Shown here piece after piece: positions 15,969 to 24,458 of a DNA stretch of 64,000 nt. Within the stretch, counting starts at the first letter, position 1, and the number at the start of each line of letters is the position of its first letter. Under the pieces are notes generated by a model that saw nothing but the letters and a program-made list of their open reading frames with translations, was not told the origin of the DNA and did not search any database. Source of the stretch: Bdellovibrionales bacterium CG12_big_fil_rev_8_21_14_0_65_38_15 (GTDB lineage Bacteria > Bdellovibrionota > Bacteriovoracia > Bacteriovoracales > Bacteriovoracaceae); assembly GCA_002787775.1 (NCBI GenBank), contig PCUW01000040.1:1-64000 (forward strand), given 5' to 3'. A program made the position numbers and the translations under genes.

Positions 15969-18044
15969 GTGAATAAGTTTTTCGAGCGTTTTAAATTCCT
16001 CAACGAAAATAGTGACCTTGCCGTAGCGATAGGTTTGCTACTCGTTATGGTGGTGATGATTGTTCCAATCCCACCATTACTACTTGATCTTTTGGTTGCT
16101 GCTTCGTTAGCAATTGCGATTCTTGTGATGCTTGTTTCTGTGTATACAAAGCGTCCATTAGACTTCTCAACTTTTCCTTCAGTCCTACTTGTAACAACTT
16201 TATTTAGATTGTCTTTAAACGTAGCTTCAACTCGTAATATTCTTCTTCGCGGTGGTAGTGAGGGAACAGCGGCTGCTGGTGAGATCATTCGCTCGTTTGG
16301 TGAGTTCGTTGTTGAAGGGAATTACGTTGTTGGTATCGTTGTTTTTATCATCCTCGTCATCATTAACTTTATCGTGATCACTAAAGGTGCTGGTCGAGTC
16401 GCTGAAGTTGCAGCCAGATTCACCTTGGATGCTATGCCTGGTAAACAAATGGCGATTGATGCTGATTTGAATGCTGGTCTCATTAATGATGAACAAGCAA
16501 AAAAACGTCGTAAAGAAGTCGCAGAAGAAGCAGATTTTTATGGTTCTATGGACGGTGCTTCGAAGTTCGTTCGCGGAGATGCCATTGCCGGTATCATGAT
16601 CACCGCGGTGAATATTGTGGCAGGTATCATTATTGGTGTTTCTCAAAATAATATGGATTTTTCTCAGGCCGCCGAAACATTCACTCTACTAACAGTAGGT
16701 GATGGTCTGATTTCACAAATTCCAGCACTAATTATTTCTGTTGCCGCCGGTATTATCACCACAAGAAATACTGAAGATACCAATCTAGGAGATCAGGTAA
16801 GTAAACAATTTAGATTGCATCCAAAAGCCTTATACGTTGCAGGTGCGGTTTTATTTGTTTTCGCTATGATACCAGGGCTTCCACAACTTCCATTCATCGC
16901 TGTTGGTCTCATGCTGTGCTTTGGCGCCTACAGAATGGAACAATGGAATGAAGATGATATTAAAAAGGCATCAGTAGCGAAAACAGATGAGAAGAAAGCA
17001 ACTCCTGAAAATCTCGAAGATCTCCTTACTCTTGAGTTAGTTGAGCTAGAAGTTGGATATGGCTTAGTCAATCTTGTTGACTCAGAGCAAAATGGTGATT
17101 TACTTGAAAGAATTACTCATATTCGCAAACAGTTCGCTTTAGACTGGGGAGTTATCATTCCTTCTGTTAGAATTAAAGATAACCTCGAGCTTAAGCCCGG
17201 TGGTTACAGCGTTAAAATCAAAGGAATTGAAGTGGCGCGCGGTGAACTTATGTCCGATCATTTTATGGCCATGGACCCTGGCTCAGTGATCGAAAAAATG
17301 GACGGAATTGAAACAGTTGAACCTGTCTTTGGTTTACCTGCTGTTTGGATTACTGAAGATCAAAGAGATGATGCTCAATACAATGGGTACACTGTCGTTG
17401 ATCTTTCAACCGTTGTTGCAACTCACTTAACTGAAATATTAAAAACAAATCTTCATGAACTCTTTGGTCGCCAAGAACTTGTTCGTGTTCTTGATAATTT
17501 CAAAGAGCATTATCCAAAAGTGGTTGCGGATCTTGTGCCAGATATTTTACCACTTGGAATTGTCTTAAAAGTGATTCAAAACCTTTTAAAAGAAGGCGTA
17601 TCGGTTAGAGATCTTCGTACCATTCTTGAAAGCTTAGCTGAGTATGGTGGAACAACAAAAGATCCAGACTCACTGACTGAAAATGTTCGCCAATCACTTT
17701 ACAGAACAATTACTGAAAGTATTCGTAGTGAACAAGGTGATATTCCAATCTTTACTCTTGATCGTAAGATTGAAGAAAGTATTGCTGGAAATATTATTCA
17801 AGACGGAGCTAATCAACAGCTTTCTCTTGATCCAAAAATCACTCAATCAATCTTGGCTTCTCTAAATGAAAAAATTGAAGAAGCGACAGGAATGGGCGAG
17901 AAGATGGTTGTGCTTTGTAGCCCAGTTATCCGTCATCACTTTAAACGATTAACAGAGAAATTTATCCCAAATCTCGTTGTCATTAGTCACAACGAGCTTA
18001 GCCCTGATACTCATATCAGATCTCTTGGAACGGTGAGGTTGTAA
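15969..18044 (+). CDS. flhA: Flagellar export protein FlhA
   Basis: 'SEGTAAAGEIIRSFGEFVVEGNYVVGIVVFIILVIINFIVITKGAGRVAEVAARFTLDAMPGKQMAIDADLNAGLI'; GTG start. Confidence 0.98.
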   Translation: MNKFFERFKFLNENSDLAVAIGLLLVMVVMIVPIPPLLLDLLVAASLAIAILVMLVSVYTKRPLDFSTFPSVLLVTTLFRLSLNVASTRNILLRGGSEGTAAAGEIIRSFGEFVVEGNYVVGIVVFIILVIINFIVITKGAGRVAEVAARFTLDAMPGKQMAIDADLNAGLINDEQAKKRRKEVAEEADFYGSMDGASKFVRGDAIAGIMITAVNIVAGIIIGVSQNNMDFSQAAETFTLLTVGDGLISQIPALIISVAAGIITTRNTEDTNLGDQVSKQFRLHPKALYVAGAVLFVFAMIPGLPQLPFIAVGLMLCFGAYRMEQWNEDDIKKASVAKTDEKKATPENLEDLLTLELVELEVGYGLVNLVDSEQNGDLLERITHIRKQFALDWGVIIPSVRIKDNLELKPGGYSVKIKGIEVARGELMSDHFMAMDPGSVIEKMDGIETVEPVFGLPAVWITEDQRDDAQYNGYTVVDLSTVVATHLTEILKTNLHELFGRQELVRVLDNFKEHYPKVVADLVPDILPLGIVLKVIQNLLKEGVSVRDLRTILESLAEYGGTTKDPDSLTENVRQSLYRTITESIRSEQGDIPIFTLDRKIEESIAGNIIQDGANQQLSLDPKITQSILASLNEKIEEATGMGEKMVVLCSPVIRHHFKRLTEKFIPNLVVISHNELSPDTHIRSLGTVRL

Positions 18045-18045
18045 G

Positions 18046-19461
18046 ATGCATGTTCGTAAATTTGAAGCTGAAACATTAGAACAAGCGCTTAAAGATATTA
18101 AGCGCGAACTTGGCCCTGATGCCATTATTCTAAAAACAATCAGTAATGCTGGTATTAAGGGCGCTTTTAAGAAAAGTAAAATTGAAATTACAGCTGCAAT
18201 TTCAGAAAAAAACTACACTAAAAAAGCTAGAGTCGATACGGTTCTTGATCAAGGTCAAAAGGATTCGTTTTATGGCAATCAAGCAGGTCATATTTCGAAT
18301 ATGATTGATCGCCATGATGAATCACATAAGGCTTCTCATCAAGGTATGACACAAGGTTATGGCAAGGCAGCGCTTAATCGCACAGTCAAAACAACTGTGG
18401 ATAAAATTAAGGGCGGACTTGATGACTTTTTAAGTCTTGGAACTAATGAGCAAGCAAAGCCAGCTAAAGCGTCAAATTATAATGAAGAAACAGATGAGTT
18501 TGAAGTCGCGATGGCATCAGCAGCTCCTCAAGAAAAAACTTATACGGAAAAGAAAATTGAACAACCCTCACCAGTTGTTCAAGATCAGCTTCCGTCTCAA
18601 GCCTATGATGATGGAAAAGTTGAAGAACTTGAAAAACGTCTTTGGGAACTTTCTCGCAGTGTTGAAAGAATTGAGAGAAAAGAGCCAGAAGGAATTTACC
18701 AGCTTCGTACAATCTTAAGAAGTCTTGATGTAAGTGATACAGCGATACAAGAAATTATTCGTGGTGCGATGTTTGAACTTTCAAAAGATGAAACTCAAGA
18801 CCCAGATACAGTTTTAGAATATGCTCTACGTTTAATGGTTGATGATATTAAAACTGGAATGCCATTATTTTCTACGGCCGAAGGCTCTGAAAAACCGGTT
18901 GTTACAGTTCTAATTTCTGAAAGCTCATGTGGACAATCTTCAATGGCCAGAAAAATTTCTGCGCTCAAAGAAGGATCAGTTTTAGTTCGTTGCAGTGAAA
19001 GTGAAGATCAACCTTTTACTGAAAGAGTTCTTGGTATTACGGTTCAAAATGCTAAAGGTGTTCCAGATATTATTGGGCAAACACGTAAGGCTATTGAAGC
19101 TAATAAGAACGTCTTTATCGACTTTAGAAATTCATCAGAAGAAGTTCAAGAGGTGAAAAGATTTGTGGATGGTCTTCGTCGCTCTTTTGACAAGGTGGAA
19201 GTCCTTGTCTCTCTTTCCGCCATTCACGCAGAAATCTATAATAGAAAGATAGCAGCTCGTTACCAAGGAATTGCTAACGGAGCAGTGGTGAGTCACCTTG
19301 ATCTATGTTTAAACTTTGGTGCTATTTATAATGTCGCAAGAGATTATAAGACTATGCCACTTAAGTTTTTTGGCACTGGTGAAGTGGTTCCAGATGATAT
19401 TGAATCAGCTACGGCGGAGCGCATCCTGGCAGGGATGTTCCAGCTAGAATCTGAGGCCTAA
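18046..19461 (+). CDS. flhF: FlhF-like SRP-GTPase homolog with degenerate nucleotide-binding motifs
   Basis: N-terminal 'MHVRKFEAETLEQALKDIKRELGPDAIILKT' and C-terminal 'PLKFFGTGEVVPDDIESATAERILAGM' are FlhF signatures; the P-loop position reads ISESSCGQSSM. Confidence 0.88.
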   Translation: MHVRKFEAETLEQALKDIKRELGPDAIILKTISNAGIKGAFKKSKIEITAAISEKNYTKKARVDTVLDQGQKDSFYGNQAGHISNMIDRHDESHKASHQGMTQGYGKAALNRTVKTTVDKIKGGLDDFLSLGTNEQAKPAKASNYNEETDEFEVAMASAAPQEKTYTEKKIEQPSPVVQDQLPSQAYDDGKVEELEKRLWELSRSVERIERKEPEGIYQLRTILRSLDVSDTAIQEIIRGAMFELSKDETQDPDTVLEYALRLMVDDIKTGMPLFSTAEGSEKPVVTVLISESSCGQSSMARKISALKEGSVLVRCSESEDQPFTERVLGITVQNAKGVPDIIGQTRKAIEANKNVFIDFRNSSEEVQEVKRFVDGLRRSFDKVEVLVSLSAIHAEIYNRKIAARYQGIANGAVVSHLDLCLNFGAIYNVARDYKTMPLKFFGTGEVVPDDIESATAERILAGMFQLESEA

Positions 19462-19529: not shown

Positions 19530-20414
19530 ATGAAGCAAGCGAGCGAATGGCTCATTTCTCAGAATAAATTTCATCGTGACGCGAGATCTCTAGGCCGTAA
19601 GGCACACACTGTATCAATTACAGGTGGAAAAGGTGGCGTAGGCAAAACCTCAATTGCACTTAAGATGGCGCGTATGCTGGCAAAGCAAGACTTCAAAGTT
19701 TTGCTTATCGATTGCGATACTAACCTTTCAAATACTGCAGTTAAACTTGGTTTACCGCTTAACGATCACTTTATGGATCTTGTGACAGCGAAGAAAAGTT
19801 TTGAAGAATGCCTAACTATTGATGGCAATTTCCATCTTCTTTCTGCCTGTAACGGCAATATGGAACTCTTTGAAAAAGAATTAGAATTTGATCGTCTACT
19901 CATCGATGTCATGAGTGCGCACGAAAAAGATTATGATTATATTTTATTAGATTGTCCGGCAGGACTTTCAAAAACATCACTGACGCTGAACGCTTATAGT
20001 GACCAACGCATTGTCGTTGTCACTCCTGATCGTTCATCTATCACTGATAGCTATTCCCTCATGAAAATTCTTAACACTCGTTACGGAGTGAATGAGAACC
20101 ATTTATTGGTTAATAAAGTATCAACTCTTGCTCAATACCAACGTATGGTCAGAACGCTTGGTGAGACAGTTGAGAATTTCTTAACAGCACGTTTAAGAGT
20201 CCTAGGATTCGTGGCCTTTGAACGTGGTGCAGTCGATCGTTTCGACCAGGAGCTACTTGGAGGGGCAAATTCTGCCCTCGAGAGAGACTTCGCTAAGGTC
20301 CTAACTCGCTTCACCGAAGAGACAGTAGGGGCCAACGTAAGCGCGCATGGCCCTGCCCGCCCATATAACTCAATGAGGGTGCGGGAACAGGATGTTCAAC
20401 CCGCTATCTGTTAA
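19530..20414 (+). CDS. flhG: MinD-like ATPase FlhG/FleN
   Basis: 'VSITGGKGGVGKTSIALKMARMLAKQDFKVLLIDCDTNLSN'; position between flhF and fliA. Confidence 0.95.
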   Translation: MKQASEWLISQNKFHRDARSLGRKAHTVSITGGKGGVGKTSIALKMARMLAKQDFKVLLIDCDTNLSNTAVKLGLPLNDHFMDLVTAKKSFEECLTIDGNFHLLSACNGNMELFEKELEFDRLLIDVMSAHEKDYDYILLDCPAGLSKTSLTLNAYSDQRIVVVTPDRSSITDSYSLMKILNTRYGVNENHLLVNKVSTLAQYQRMVRTLGETVENFLTARLRVLGFVAFERGAVDRFDQELLGGANSALERDFAKVLTRFTEETVGANVSAHGPARPYNSMRVREQDVQPAIC

Positions 20415-20423
20415 GGAGTCCAA

Positions 20424-21209
20424 ATGTCGTCTCTCTCTCAAAAATTGAAGAATCTTAAAGACTATAAAACGCATATTGATGCGAAGACGAAAGATCAGAT
20501 CATTGTTGAATATGCTCCTTTGATTAAGTTTATTGCGCAAAAAATTGCGTCAAGATTACCTTCAAATATTGAGTTAGATGATCTTATTTCTTGTGGTGTC
20601 ATTGGACTAATGGATGCTATCGATAAATTCGATCCTACTCGTGATAATAAATTTAAAACATACGCAGAATTTAGAATTCGTGGTGCGATTCTTGATGAAC
20701 TTCGCGCACAAGATTGGGTTCCTCGCTCTGTTCGTGAAAAAGCCAAGACTGTTGAAAAAGCTTATACAAAGCTTGAGTCTGAACTTGGACGTCCAGCCAC
20801 TGATGAAGAAATGTGCGCAGAACTTAACTGCTCACAAGAAGAGTTTCATGATCTACTGAATAAAAGTAAGTCTGTTTCTCTTTTAAATATTGATGATAGT
20901 GCAACATTTAACCGCGGCGATAAAAAGCTTATGGCCGGTTTGATGGAAGATAGTCGCACTTCAAATCCATTTACAATGGTGTCTCATCAAAACCTTCGTG
21001 AAAAAATTAAAGACGGAATTAAGGGATTGCCTGAAAAGCAACGTCTTGTTCTATCATTATATTATTTTGAAGATCTTAACCTTAAAGAAATCGGACAGGT
21101 TTTAGACGTAACTGAATCTCGTGTTTCTCAGCTTCATACTCAAGCGATTATGAAACTAAGAACTAAGCTTCGTACAGTTATTGACTCGCCTGAAGATTTA
21201 GCCAGTTAA
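20424..21209 (+). CDS. fliA: RNA polymerase sigma-28 factor (FliA/WhiG family)
   Basis: Sigma region 2 'ELDDLISCGVIGLMDAIDKFDPTRDNKFKTYAEFRIRGAILDELRAQDWVPRSVR' and region 4. Confidence 0.96.
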   Translation: MSSLSQKLKNLKDYKTHIDAKTKDQIIVEYAPLIKFIAQKIASRLPSNIELDDLISCGVIGLMDAIDKFDPTRDNKFKTYAEFRIRGAILDELRAQDWVPRSVREKAKTVEKAYTKLESELGRPATDEEMCAELNCSQEEFHDLLNKSKSVSLLNIDDSATFNRGDKKLMAGLMEDSRTSNPFTMVSHQNLREKIKDGIKGLPEKQRLVLSLYYFEDLNLKEIGQVLDVTESRVSQLHTQAIMKLRTKLRTVIDSPEDLAS

Positions 21210-22106: not shown

Positions 22107-24458
22107 ATGTCCATACGTGCGTCTCGCTCTTCATTTTATTTCTTCACAACCATTATTATTGCCTCTGTCATTAGCTTAGTTGCTGGCTCATATTGGTTTT
22201 GGACTCAAGGGCCATCACAGGGTTCAAAACTTGCAGAAGTCTTTGAAGCAGGCTTAGTCATGGATCGCCTCCTTGATGAAAAAAATATTAATGAACTAAA
22301 CGAGCTTGTATCAAACGATCAAGTTCGATTGGCCACAAAGAAACTTTCAACTATTGAAAGTGATACAAAGATGATTGAAAGATTAACAAATAACGATTCA
22401 GCTGAAGAATTTCTTGAGGCATCAACAAAATTAAGAAGCCAAATGAACTCGCTAATTGAATATCCTGAACTTTCGTCAATATTTTCTGTACTCACAAATA
22501 AAATGTCTGCCTTTGAATCATTTGTTGTCCAAAGTCAGTGGAGAACATTATCAAGACTATCGAAAAAAGTTGGAGCAAGGCTAGAGCCCGCTCAAGCCAA
22601 GTCCCCTGGTGCATTTTCATACGCAAAGCTAAAACAGACCGTTGAAGGTACGACTGACGATATCGAGATGATGAAGAAAGTGACCACGAACTCAGTTTTA
22701 TCAAGTGTCGACAAAAATACAATTCTTAATCGTTTGATAACAATGGAAAGTGAACTTGATATGCTTAATAGGTATGTCAAATCTCTTGCCGAGTTTAATC
22801 CAATTTTTAATAACTATAAGAAGACTTGGCAACAATGGACAAAAGCAGCTTCACCAAATTTGGCTAAACTAAGGCTTGATCAAGAAAATGTATCTCAATG
22901 GCTTCTCTATGGTGTTGTTCTTGTCATTACCTTTTTAATGATTGGTTTATTTGTAGGTGTTGGAATTAGTCAAAGTGAATACAAAACGAATTTAAAAGCA
23001 TGGGAAAAAGACTCTGTTGAAATGCTTCGTGATCGACTCCTTCCAACAGATGGTAAAGAATCTAAAGAATGGAGCAAAGAATTTTCTTTAGAATTCTCAA
23101 AGTACCGCGAGTATTTTCATAAGCGCATGAGTTTTGGAACGATCTTTCAAGAGGCAACTCCTTTTAGTGCATTCTTGCTTGATTCAAATCTAGGTGTGGT
23201 TTGGGCCAACGATCTCTTCTCTAAATGTTGGAATATCGAAGCCCAGCAAGACAATGAAGCGAATTTGACTTGGGATTACCTTTCAGGATTTACCAATCTT
23301 GGTGAAGATGATCCTGTTATTTTGGCCCTTCGCCAAGGTATTGCAGGAATATATCAAATCCAAATTAAAGCCTTTGGTCTTGAAGAAACAGCTCCATATG
23401 AAATGTATGTTTCACCAGTGGATTATGCAGGCCAAAAACGAGTGATGATTTTCCTTTACCCATTACATACGGTTGAAGAAAGTTTAGCAGAGCAAACAAA
23501 AGCTGTTGTAGGCCCTGCGATCAAAGCTCTTGAAGCTATATCTGCCAGAGAGTTTGAAGGTGAAGTGCTTGAAAAACTTGAATCACAATTTTCAAGTGCA
23601 GGTATCGCTGATCTTTATTCACAATTTGAAAAATTTAACTCCCATGTTGGTGATCGTATCGAATCTCTTGAAGGCGAAATTAATTACTTAAGACAGGAAC
23701 TTATTAAAGCAAAAAGTCAGGTTAGTCTTCATGAAGCCAGCTTAAAGCAAAATATCAATCTTGTTGAACAAACAGTTCAAAGTTTTGATCAAGTTAAAAC
23801 AAATATTATCTCTTCAGTTGATTACCGTTATGAAGTTGAAAAACTTTACGCTGATACGGTAGCCACCGCAAAAATCTTATTTAAAGAGGAAGATGATCTT
23901 TTAACAGATTCAATGAGTGTTTACGATCTCTTAGGCGAAAACCAAAAAGCTACCGCCTCTGTTTCTAAAATACGTGAGCAACTTAAAGATATTAAACGTG
24001 ACTTTGATGATACACGTTCAAGATTAAATCAAAGTATTGATCAAGCCCTTGTTTTTTCAAAGCGTGATCAAGATGGTGGAGTGCTCGAAGCGCCTCTTCA
24101 TAAAATTCGCGGTGAAGTTAAAGCCTTTGATCTGACTCAGGCCAATCTTACAAAAACTTTAAAATCTCTTGATGTTTCTCTATCAAAAATGGAGATGATT
24201 CTTGATGATCACAGACCACCTTCTTTTGAAAAACTAAAACTTAACTTTAGTGATGCTAGAGCGAGAATTGAAAGTGATATGTTCAAAGTCAGTAAACTTG
24301 CTAGAGAAGGCGAGGTGATTGATGAAAAAGTTATTACATCGCTTAAGAAACTCTTTAGTGATTTCAAACATTCAAGACAGCATTCGTTTGTTTCATTAAA
24401 TTCAACAAGTGAAAAGATGAAGTCAAATCAGGGCGAGAGCTTACAGCAGCAGGTCTGA
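22107..24458 (+). CDS. Large membrane-anchored coiled-coil protein with PAS-like segment
   Basis: N-terminal and central TM helices (~res 15-35, 270-290), 'FSAFLLDSNLGVVWANDLF' PAS-like, long heptad-rich C-terminus. Confidence 0.75.
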   Translation: MSIRASRSSFYFFTTIIIASVISLVAGSYWFWTQGPSQGSKLAEVFEAGLVMDRLLDEKNINELNELVSNDQVRLATKKLSTIESDTKMIERLTNNDSAEEFLEASTKLRSQMNSLIEYPELSSIFSVLTNKMSAFESFVVQSQWRTLSRLSKKVGARLEPAQAKSPGAFSYAKLKQTVEGTTDDIEMMKKVTTNSVLSSVDKNTILNRLITMESELDMLNRYVKSLAEFNPIFNNYKKTWQQWTKAASPNLAKLRLDQENVSQWLLYGVVLVITFLMIGLFVGVGISQSEYKTNLKAWEKDSVEMLRDRLLPTDGKESKEWSKEFSLEFSKYREYFHKRMSFGTIFQEATPFSAFLLDSNLGVVWANDLFSKCWNIEAQQDNEANLTWDYLSGFTNLGEDDPVILALRQGIAGIYQIQIKAFGLEETAPYEMYVSPVDYAGQKRVMIFLYPLHTVEESLAEQTKAVVGPAIKALEAISAREFEGEVLEKLESQFSSAGIADLYSQFEKFNSHVGDRIESLEGEINYLRQELIKAKSQVSLHEASLKQNINLVEQTVQSFDQVKTNIISSVDYRYEVEKLYADTVATAKILFKEEDDLLTDSMSVYDLLGENQKATASVSKIREQLKDIKRDFDDTRSRLNQSIDQALVFSKRDQDGGVLEAPLHKIRGEVKAFDLTQANLTKTLKSLDVSLSKMEMILDDHRPPSFEKLKLNFSDARARIESDMFKVSKLAREGEVIDEKVITSLKKLFSDFKHSRQHSFVSLNSTSEKMKSNQGESLQQQV

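Follow-up and report, generated by a model that had tools for sequence, protein, structure and literature searches.

FlhF is the third SRP-type GTPase. The purpose of its GTP cycle is unsettled: depending on the species, mutants point to a need for GTP binding, for hydrolysis or for neither (PMC12826062, PMC12713375, PMC6092412). In Vibrio, the K305A mutant and other P-loop or G4 mutants show reduced or abolished polar placement (PMC6092412). In Shewanella, the FlhF NG domain needs neither GTP nor GDP to bind HubP, and FliG is bound by the FliG interaction domain, or FID (PMC11236974). FlhG carries an N-terminal DQAxxLR helix, the Gln of which is co-catalytic for FlhF (PMC12826062).

Pseudo-GTPases as such are already known. 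The pseudo-GTPase domains of p190RhoGAP, like the domain described below, retain the GTPase fold as a protein-interaction module after motif loss (PMC5593906), but they are eukaryotic and Ras-like rather than SRP-type, and are not the sole copy of a flagellar switch. A similar pairing is found in BcsE, whose N-terminal domain is a degenerate RecA-like ATPase that goes with an active MinD-like SIMIBI ATPase, BcsQ (PMC7439463), although it belongs to another fold family and to the cellulose secretion pathway. Among open-licence papers, we found no description of FlhF as a pseudo-GTPase, in Bacteriovorax, or with a degenerate Walker A motif, nor of a pseudo-GTPase FlhF that spans a class and is paired with a rewired FlhG; a 2025 review of FlhF-FlhG evolution is silent on degenerate and GTPase-deficient FlhF and on that of Bdellovibrio.

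The window analysed here, that is, the whole stretch of 64,000 nucleotides, contains a flagellar gene cluster in the order fliM-fliN-fliO-fliP-fliQ-fliR-flhB-flhA-flhF-flhG-fliA. The gene under study is an uninterrupted frame of 471 amino acids on the forward strand (18046-19461, ORF translation). It lies between flhA (15969-18044, +; TIGR01398, 912 bits) and a MinD-type ATPase gene (19530-20414, +) that we assign to flhG by its position and its MinD-type match, followed by fliA, encoding sigma-28 (20424-21209, +; TIGR02479, 275 bits). Farther downstream, after a 282-aa ORF, is a 783-aa ORF (22107-24458) without an NCBIfam match, and the start of the window is occupied by a glycine-rich, low-complexity ORF of 203 amino acids (31-642).

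The protein encoded at 18046-19461 is a true FlhF ortholog of Bacteriovoracia, because it combines the flhA-flhF-flhG-fliA gene order with a putative N-terminal FliG-binding domain and an SRP-type NG fold. Its first 64 residues (18046-18237, +) form a structured domain corresponding to the FID of the B domain. This domain, in which the preliminary description regarded the FlhF motif as intact, matches the FlhF profile and is the most conserved region of the family, with a mean modal-residue share of 0.85 and a dN/dS of about 0.02. It is followed by a linker of low conservation (0.44; about residues 65-190, 18238-18615, +), by the helices of the N domain (about residues 191-282, 18616-18891, +; predicted helices at 189-208, 215-226, 231-244 and 253-267), and by the pseudo-GTPase (G) domain (residues 283-467, 18892-19446, +), which is supported by a match to the SRP-GTPase fold and by purifying selection. 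As for FliG itself, the FliG_C domain has four matches in the window's own genome (L099, L100, L101 and L102); the strongest is the first, in a 345-aa frame, and the other three may be paralogs or related domains.

Standard profiles recognize this protein in part. The FlhF model TIGR03499 gives 58.5 bits where the cutoff is 174, the match being confined to residues 1-252, and Pfam SRP54 gives no match to it; the FlhF proteins of B. bacteriovorus HD100 and of a member of another family of the phylum (L063) pass both. When a profile built from 25 members of the family is compared with the PDB, the top-ranking structure is that of B. subtilis FlhF (2px0; E 1.7e-10, positions 214-459); FtsY and Ffh rank lower, and an FlhF FID chain is matched as well (9en1, E 0.0012, positions 3-55). 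An AlphaFold2 model, made from a shallow alignment of five sequences, has a mean pLDDT of 63.6; the helices and strands of the NG region mostly lie at 70-92, the last 30 residues are poor, and the linker, where residues 77-187 have a pLDDT below 50, is predicted to be disordered. Foldseek searches with this model recover FlhF structures 8r9r (E 5.7e-8) and 2px0 (E 2.2e-7, target TM 0.64). Since the protein falls below the TIGR03499 cutoff, lacks an SRP54 match and has its GTPase motifs replaced, we regard it as an FlhF ortholog that stands outside the FlhF GTPase equivalog.

The motif replacement was examined using 48 non-identical sequences of one GTDB family, covering at least 22 genera and including Halobacteriovorax marinus SJ, together with 34 outgroup FlhF sequences that represent other families in the phylum. 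The preliminary description had read three GTPase motifs (P-loop, G3 and G4) as lost, and these readings are correct, with positions right to within a codon or two. The P-loop position reads SESSCGQSSM (residues 291-300; with the preceding Ile, 18913-18945), and the degenerate G1 motif itself, SESSCGQSS, occupies residues 291-299 (18916-18942, +). Here, the first P-loop Gly is replaced by Ser and the Walker A Lys by Gln in 48/48 family sequences, versus Gly and Lys in 34/34 outgroups. By this comparison, the Ser/Gln substitution is far beyond chance, because it is fixed in all of the relatives and the original residues in all of the outgroup proteins. The G3 position reads FIDFRN from about 19114, with DFRN in place of DTAG at residues 359-362 (19120-19131, +); the family pattern is D-[YFLVI]-[KRN]-x, in which the Asp alone is retained. 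At G4, SHLD replaces [TS]KxD (residues 416-419, 19291-19302, +); the Asp is kept in 48/48 sequences, and the Lys is replaced in 47 and retained in one. In addition to these three motifs, the G2/I-box (DTF/Y-K...EQL) is unrecognizable in the family. A frameshift or a misread motif was rejected as an explanation: the frame is continuous and the relatives agree.

Compared with canonical FlhF (TIGR03499; 2px0, 2px3, 3syn and 8r9r), the Bacteriovoracia protein thus has the same gene order, FID, linker, NG fold and G4 Asp, but lacks the Walker A Lys, the first P-loop Gly, the G2 I-box and DTxG, with the G4 Lys nearly absent and the TIGR03499 score below the cutoff. Canonical FlhF also shares with the family K303, D359, D419, G425, P438, G445 and the PDDIExA..ER stretch, which is part of the C-terminal GTGxxxPDDIExA..ER signature; in the window it reads FFGTGEVVPDDIESATAERI and is intact, as had been described. 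Newly fixed positions of the family include E396, Y398, N399 and K401.

Some residues near the former site remain, namely the G4 Asp, a Gly of the P-loop, the Ser/Thr that follows the Lys position, and the second conserved Lys (K303), so weak nucleotide binding would be possible. This forms the main rival to a nucleotide-free protein: FlhF may be an unconventional binder that holds GTP/GDP or another nucleotide through S291, Q297, K303 and D419, and forms a nucleotide-dependent but hydrolysis-independent dimer. In fact, S291, Q297, K303, D359 and D419 each occur in at least 98% of family members (D419 being invariant), which indicates that the pocket is not drifting, and some FlhF proteins require GTP binding but not hydrolysis (PMC12713375). 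However, G1, G2 and G3 have been lost together, along with almost every G4 Lys, and we consider such binding unlikely.

The preliminary description treated the motif loss as a feature of this one gene. The loss itself is confirmed, but it is a class-wide trait, shared by 48/48 family sequences, rather than a single aberrant gene. A family profile search finds the pseudo-GTPase flhF in 111/116 class genomes, few of these copies having stops or fragments, and the five genomes without it also lack flhA. Note that all of the class genomes examined belong to one GTDB family, the named relatives being Halobacteriovoraceae, Bacteriovoracia and Bdellovibrionales MAGs. In a maximum-likelihood tree (midpoint root, bootstrap not fully settled), one 100/100 branch separates the family from all outgroup FlhF, so that a single loss suffices.

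A canonical FlhF encoded elsewhere would make the frame at 18046-19461 a redundant or decaying paralog. The window's own genome is 92.7% complete, and the flhF of a same-genus genome (G001, 74% complete) carries one in-frame TAG at codon 21 (L004:1561-1563), both of which would leave room for this explanation; the TAG may be a sequencing or assembly error or a strain-level loss. However, the search for a second canonical FlhF found none: the window's genome yields two SRP54 domains, the number that Ffh and FtsY would account for, and the rest of the class likewise has only two SRP-type GTPases per genome, several of these genomes being essentially complete. With an E-value threshold of 1e-15, no genuine third SRP-type GTPase is present in the 116 class genomes, and there is therefore no canonical backup FlhF in those searched; an apparent third match in two of them (G005 and G087) is a single gene split over contig ends. 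The pseudo-GTPase gene, moreover, is present in nearly all of these genomes and evolves with a dN/dS of about 0.07. These genome searches already refute redundancy for the class as a whole, and we regard it as extremely improbable for the present locus.

The presence of Ffh and FtsY is relevant to another explanation, in which the pseudo-FlhF is the non-catalytic half of an obligate heterodimer with Ffh, FtsY or FlhG that shares a composite active site. SRP GTPases do act as composite dimers, and both candidate SRP partners appear to be encoded in the genome, but we know of no published pair of Ffh or FtsY with FlhF, and we give this arrangement very little weight.

Selection was estimated in five sets of close relatives, in which dS is near saturation so that the ratios are rough: dN/dS is 0.06-0.09 in the pseudo-G domain, about 0.01-0.05 in the FID and 0.18-0.30 in the linker. 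On these ratios, purifying selection acts on the pseudo-G domain, and dN/dS and conservation together reject a pseudogene. A GTPase fold whose catalytic motifs are gone, in a gene under selection, agrees with a pseudo-GTPase, and this reading of the preliminary description holds at the sequence level. Most likely, the class ancestor lost those residues of the GTPase domain that contact phosphate, Mg and guanine, and the fold was retained and reused.

The adjoining flhG, previously called intact, is so in one respect only. Its ATPase P-loop, GGKGGVGKT, is preserved, as is GKGGVGK[ST] throughout the family, but the FlhF-activating DQAxxLR helix is absent and is replaced by a WL motif, which in the window lies in the N-terminal SEWLIS (SEWLISQN). 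Within the family, DQAxxLR occurs in 0/45 FlhG sequences and the N-terminal WL motif in 44/45, all but the divergent L024; the outgroup counts are 11/26 for DQAxxLR and 0/26 for WL. The loss of the co-catalytic Gln motif also speaks against the unconventional binding of nucleotides considered above. When non-identical FlhF are counted in those outgroups whose FlhG is readable, DQAxxLR is present in 9/12 of those that have the G4 Lys versus 0/11 of those that do not (Fisher p 0.0003), but most of the 11 belong to one clade, and thus the association is not independent evidence. As far as these alignments go, the loss of the FlhG activator motif parallels the loss of the FlhF motifs across the class. 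Two short FlhF proteins of 378-380 aa in another family (f3; L029:595-1731 and L030:1480-2622) have DSPA at G3 and lack the C-terminal VPEDIE..ER, and the FlhG adjoining them lacks any N-terminal extension.

The FlhF of B. bacteriovorus HD100 (L079:1147-2580) comes from the same phylum, lies in the same gene order and is accompanied by an FlhG without DQAxxLR. However, it differs from the window protein in having an intact P-loop (GPAGSGKTS) and an SRP54 match with an E-value of 6e-26, its alterations being limited to G3 (DYTG) and the G4 Lys (TSLDE). Because the P-loop is intact while G3 is altered, the G4 Lys is lost and FlhG lacks its motif, FlhF of the HD100 type looks, from its motifs, like an intermediate, half-way state. 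The Bdellovibrio-type family (f6; L076-L089) as a whole has kept the P-loop and lost the G4 Lys (TSLDE) and the Thr of DTxG, again with an FlhG without DQAxxLR.

We consider it probable that FlhF in Bacteriovoracia serves as a scaffold which holds FliG at the pole independently of nucleotide, with the FlhG ATPase as its sole regulator. In this scheme, FlhF would bind no GTP, as its sequence suggests; the FID would bind FliG, as in homologous proteins; the pseudo-NG domain would dock on a polar factor or on itself without GTP; and the FlhG ATPase would be the only remaining nucleotide clock, its WL helix probably docking on the pseudo-NG domain. A GTP-free tether is mechanically possible, since the NG domain of Shewanella FlhF binds HubP irrespective of the nucleotide. 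H. marinus BE01, a close relative of SJ, has a single polar flagellum (PMC5760749). Because the Vibrio mutants are impaired in placement, the loss of GTP in Bacteriovoracia must have been compensated. The FimV/HubP profile TIGR03505 gave no match in our search, and the controls were likewise without a match. A more specific proposal, which we advance only tentatively, is a rewiring to one clock, in which FlhF would be a dead-GTPase scaffold and FlhG, docked by its WL helix on the former active site, would alone set flagellar number and timing through its ATPase cycle.

That FlhG has lost its activator motif in step with FlhF lends evolutionary support to the published model in which FlhG activates FlhF. 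A flagellated class without the GTPase motifs, which includes a cultured species (H. marinus) seen to bear a single polar flagellum, is also a natural experiment on the GTP-independent functions of FlhF, and it suggests that a GTP switch thought to be central to flagellum placement could be dispensable in a mostly predatory class.
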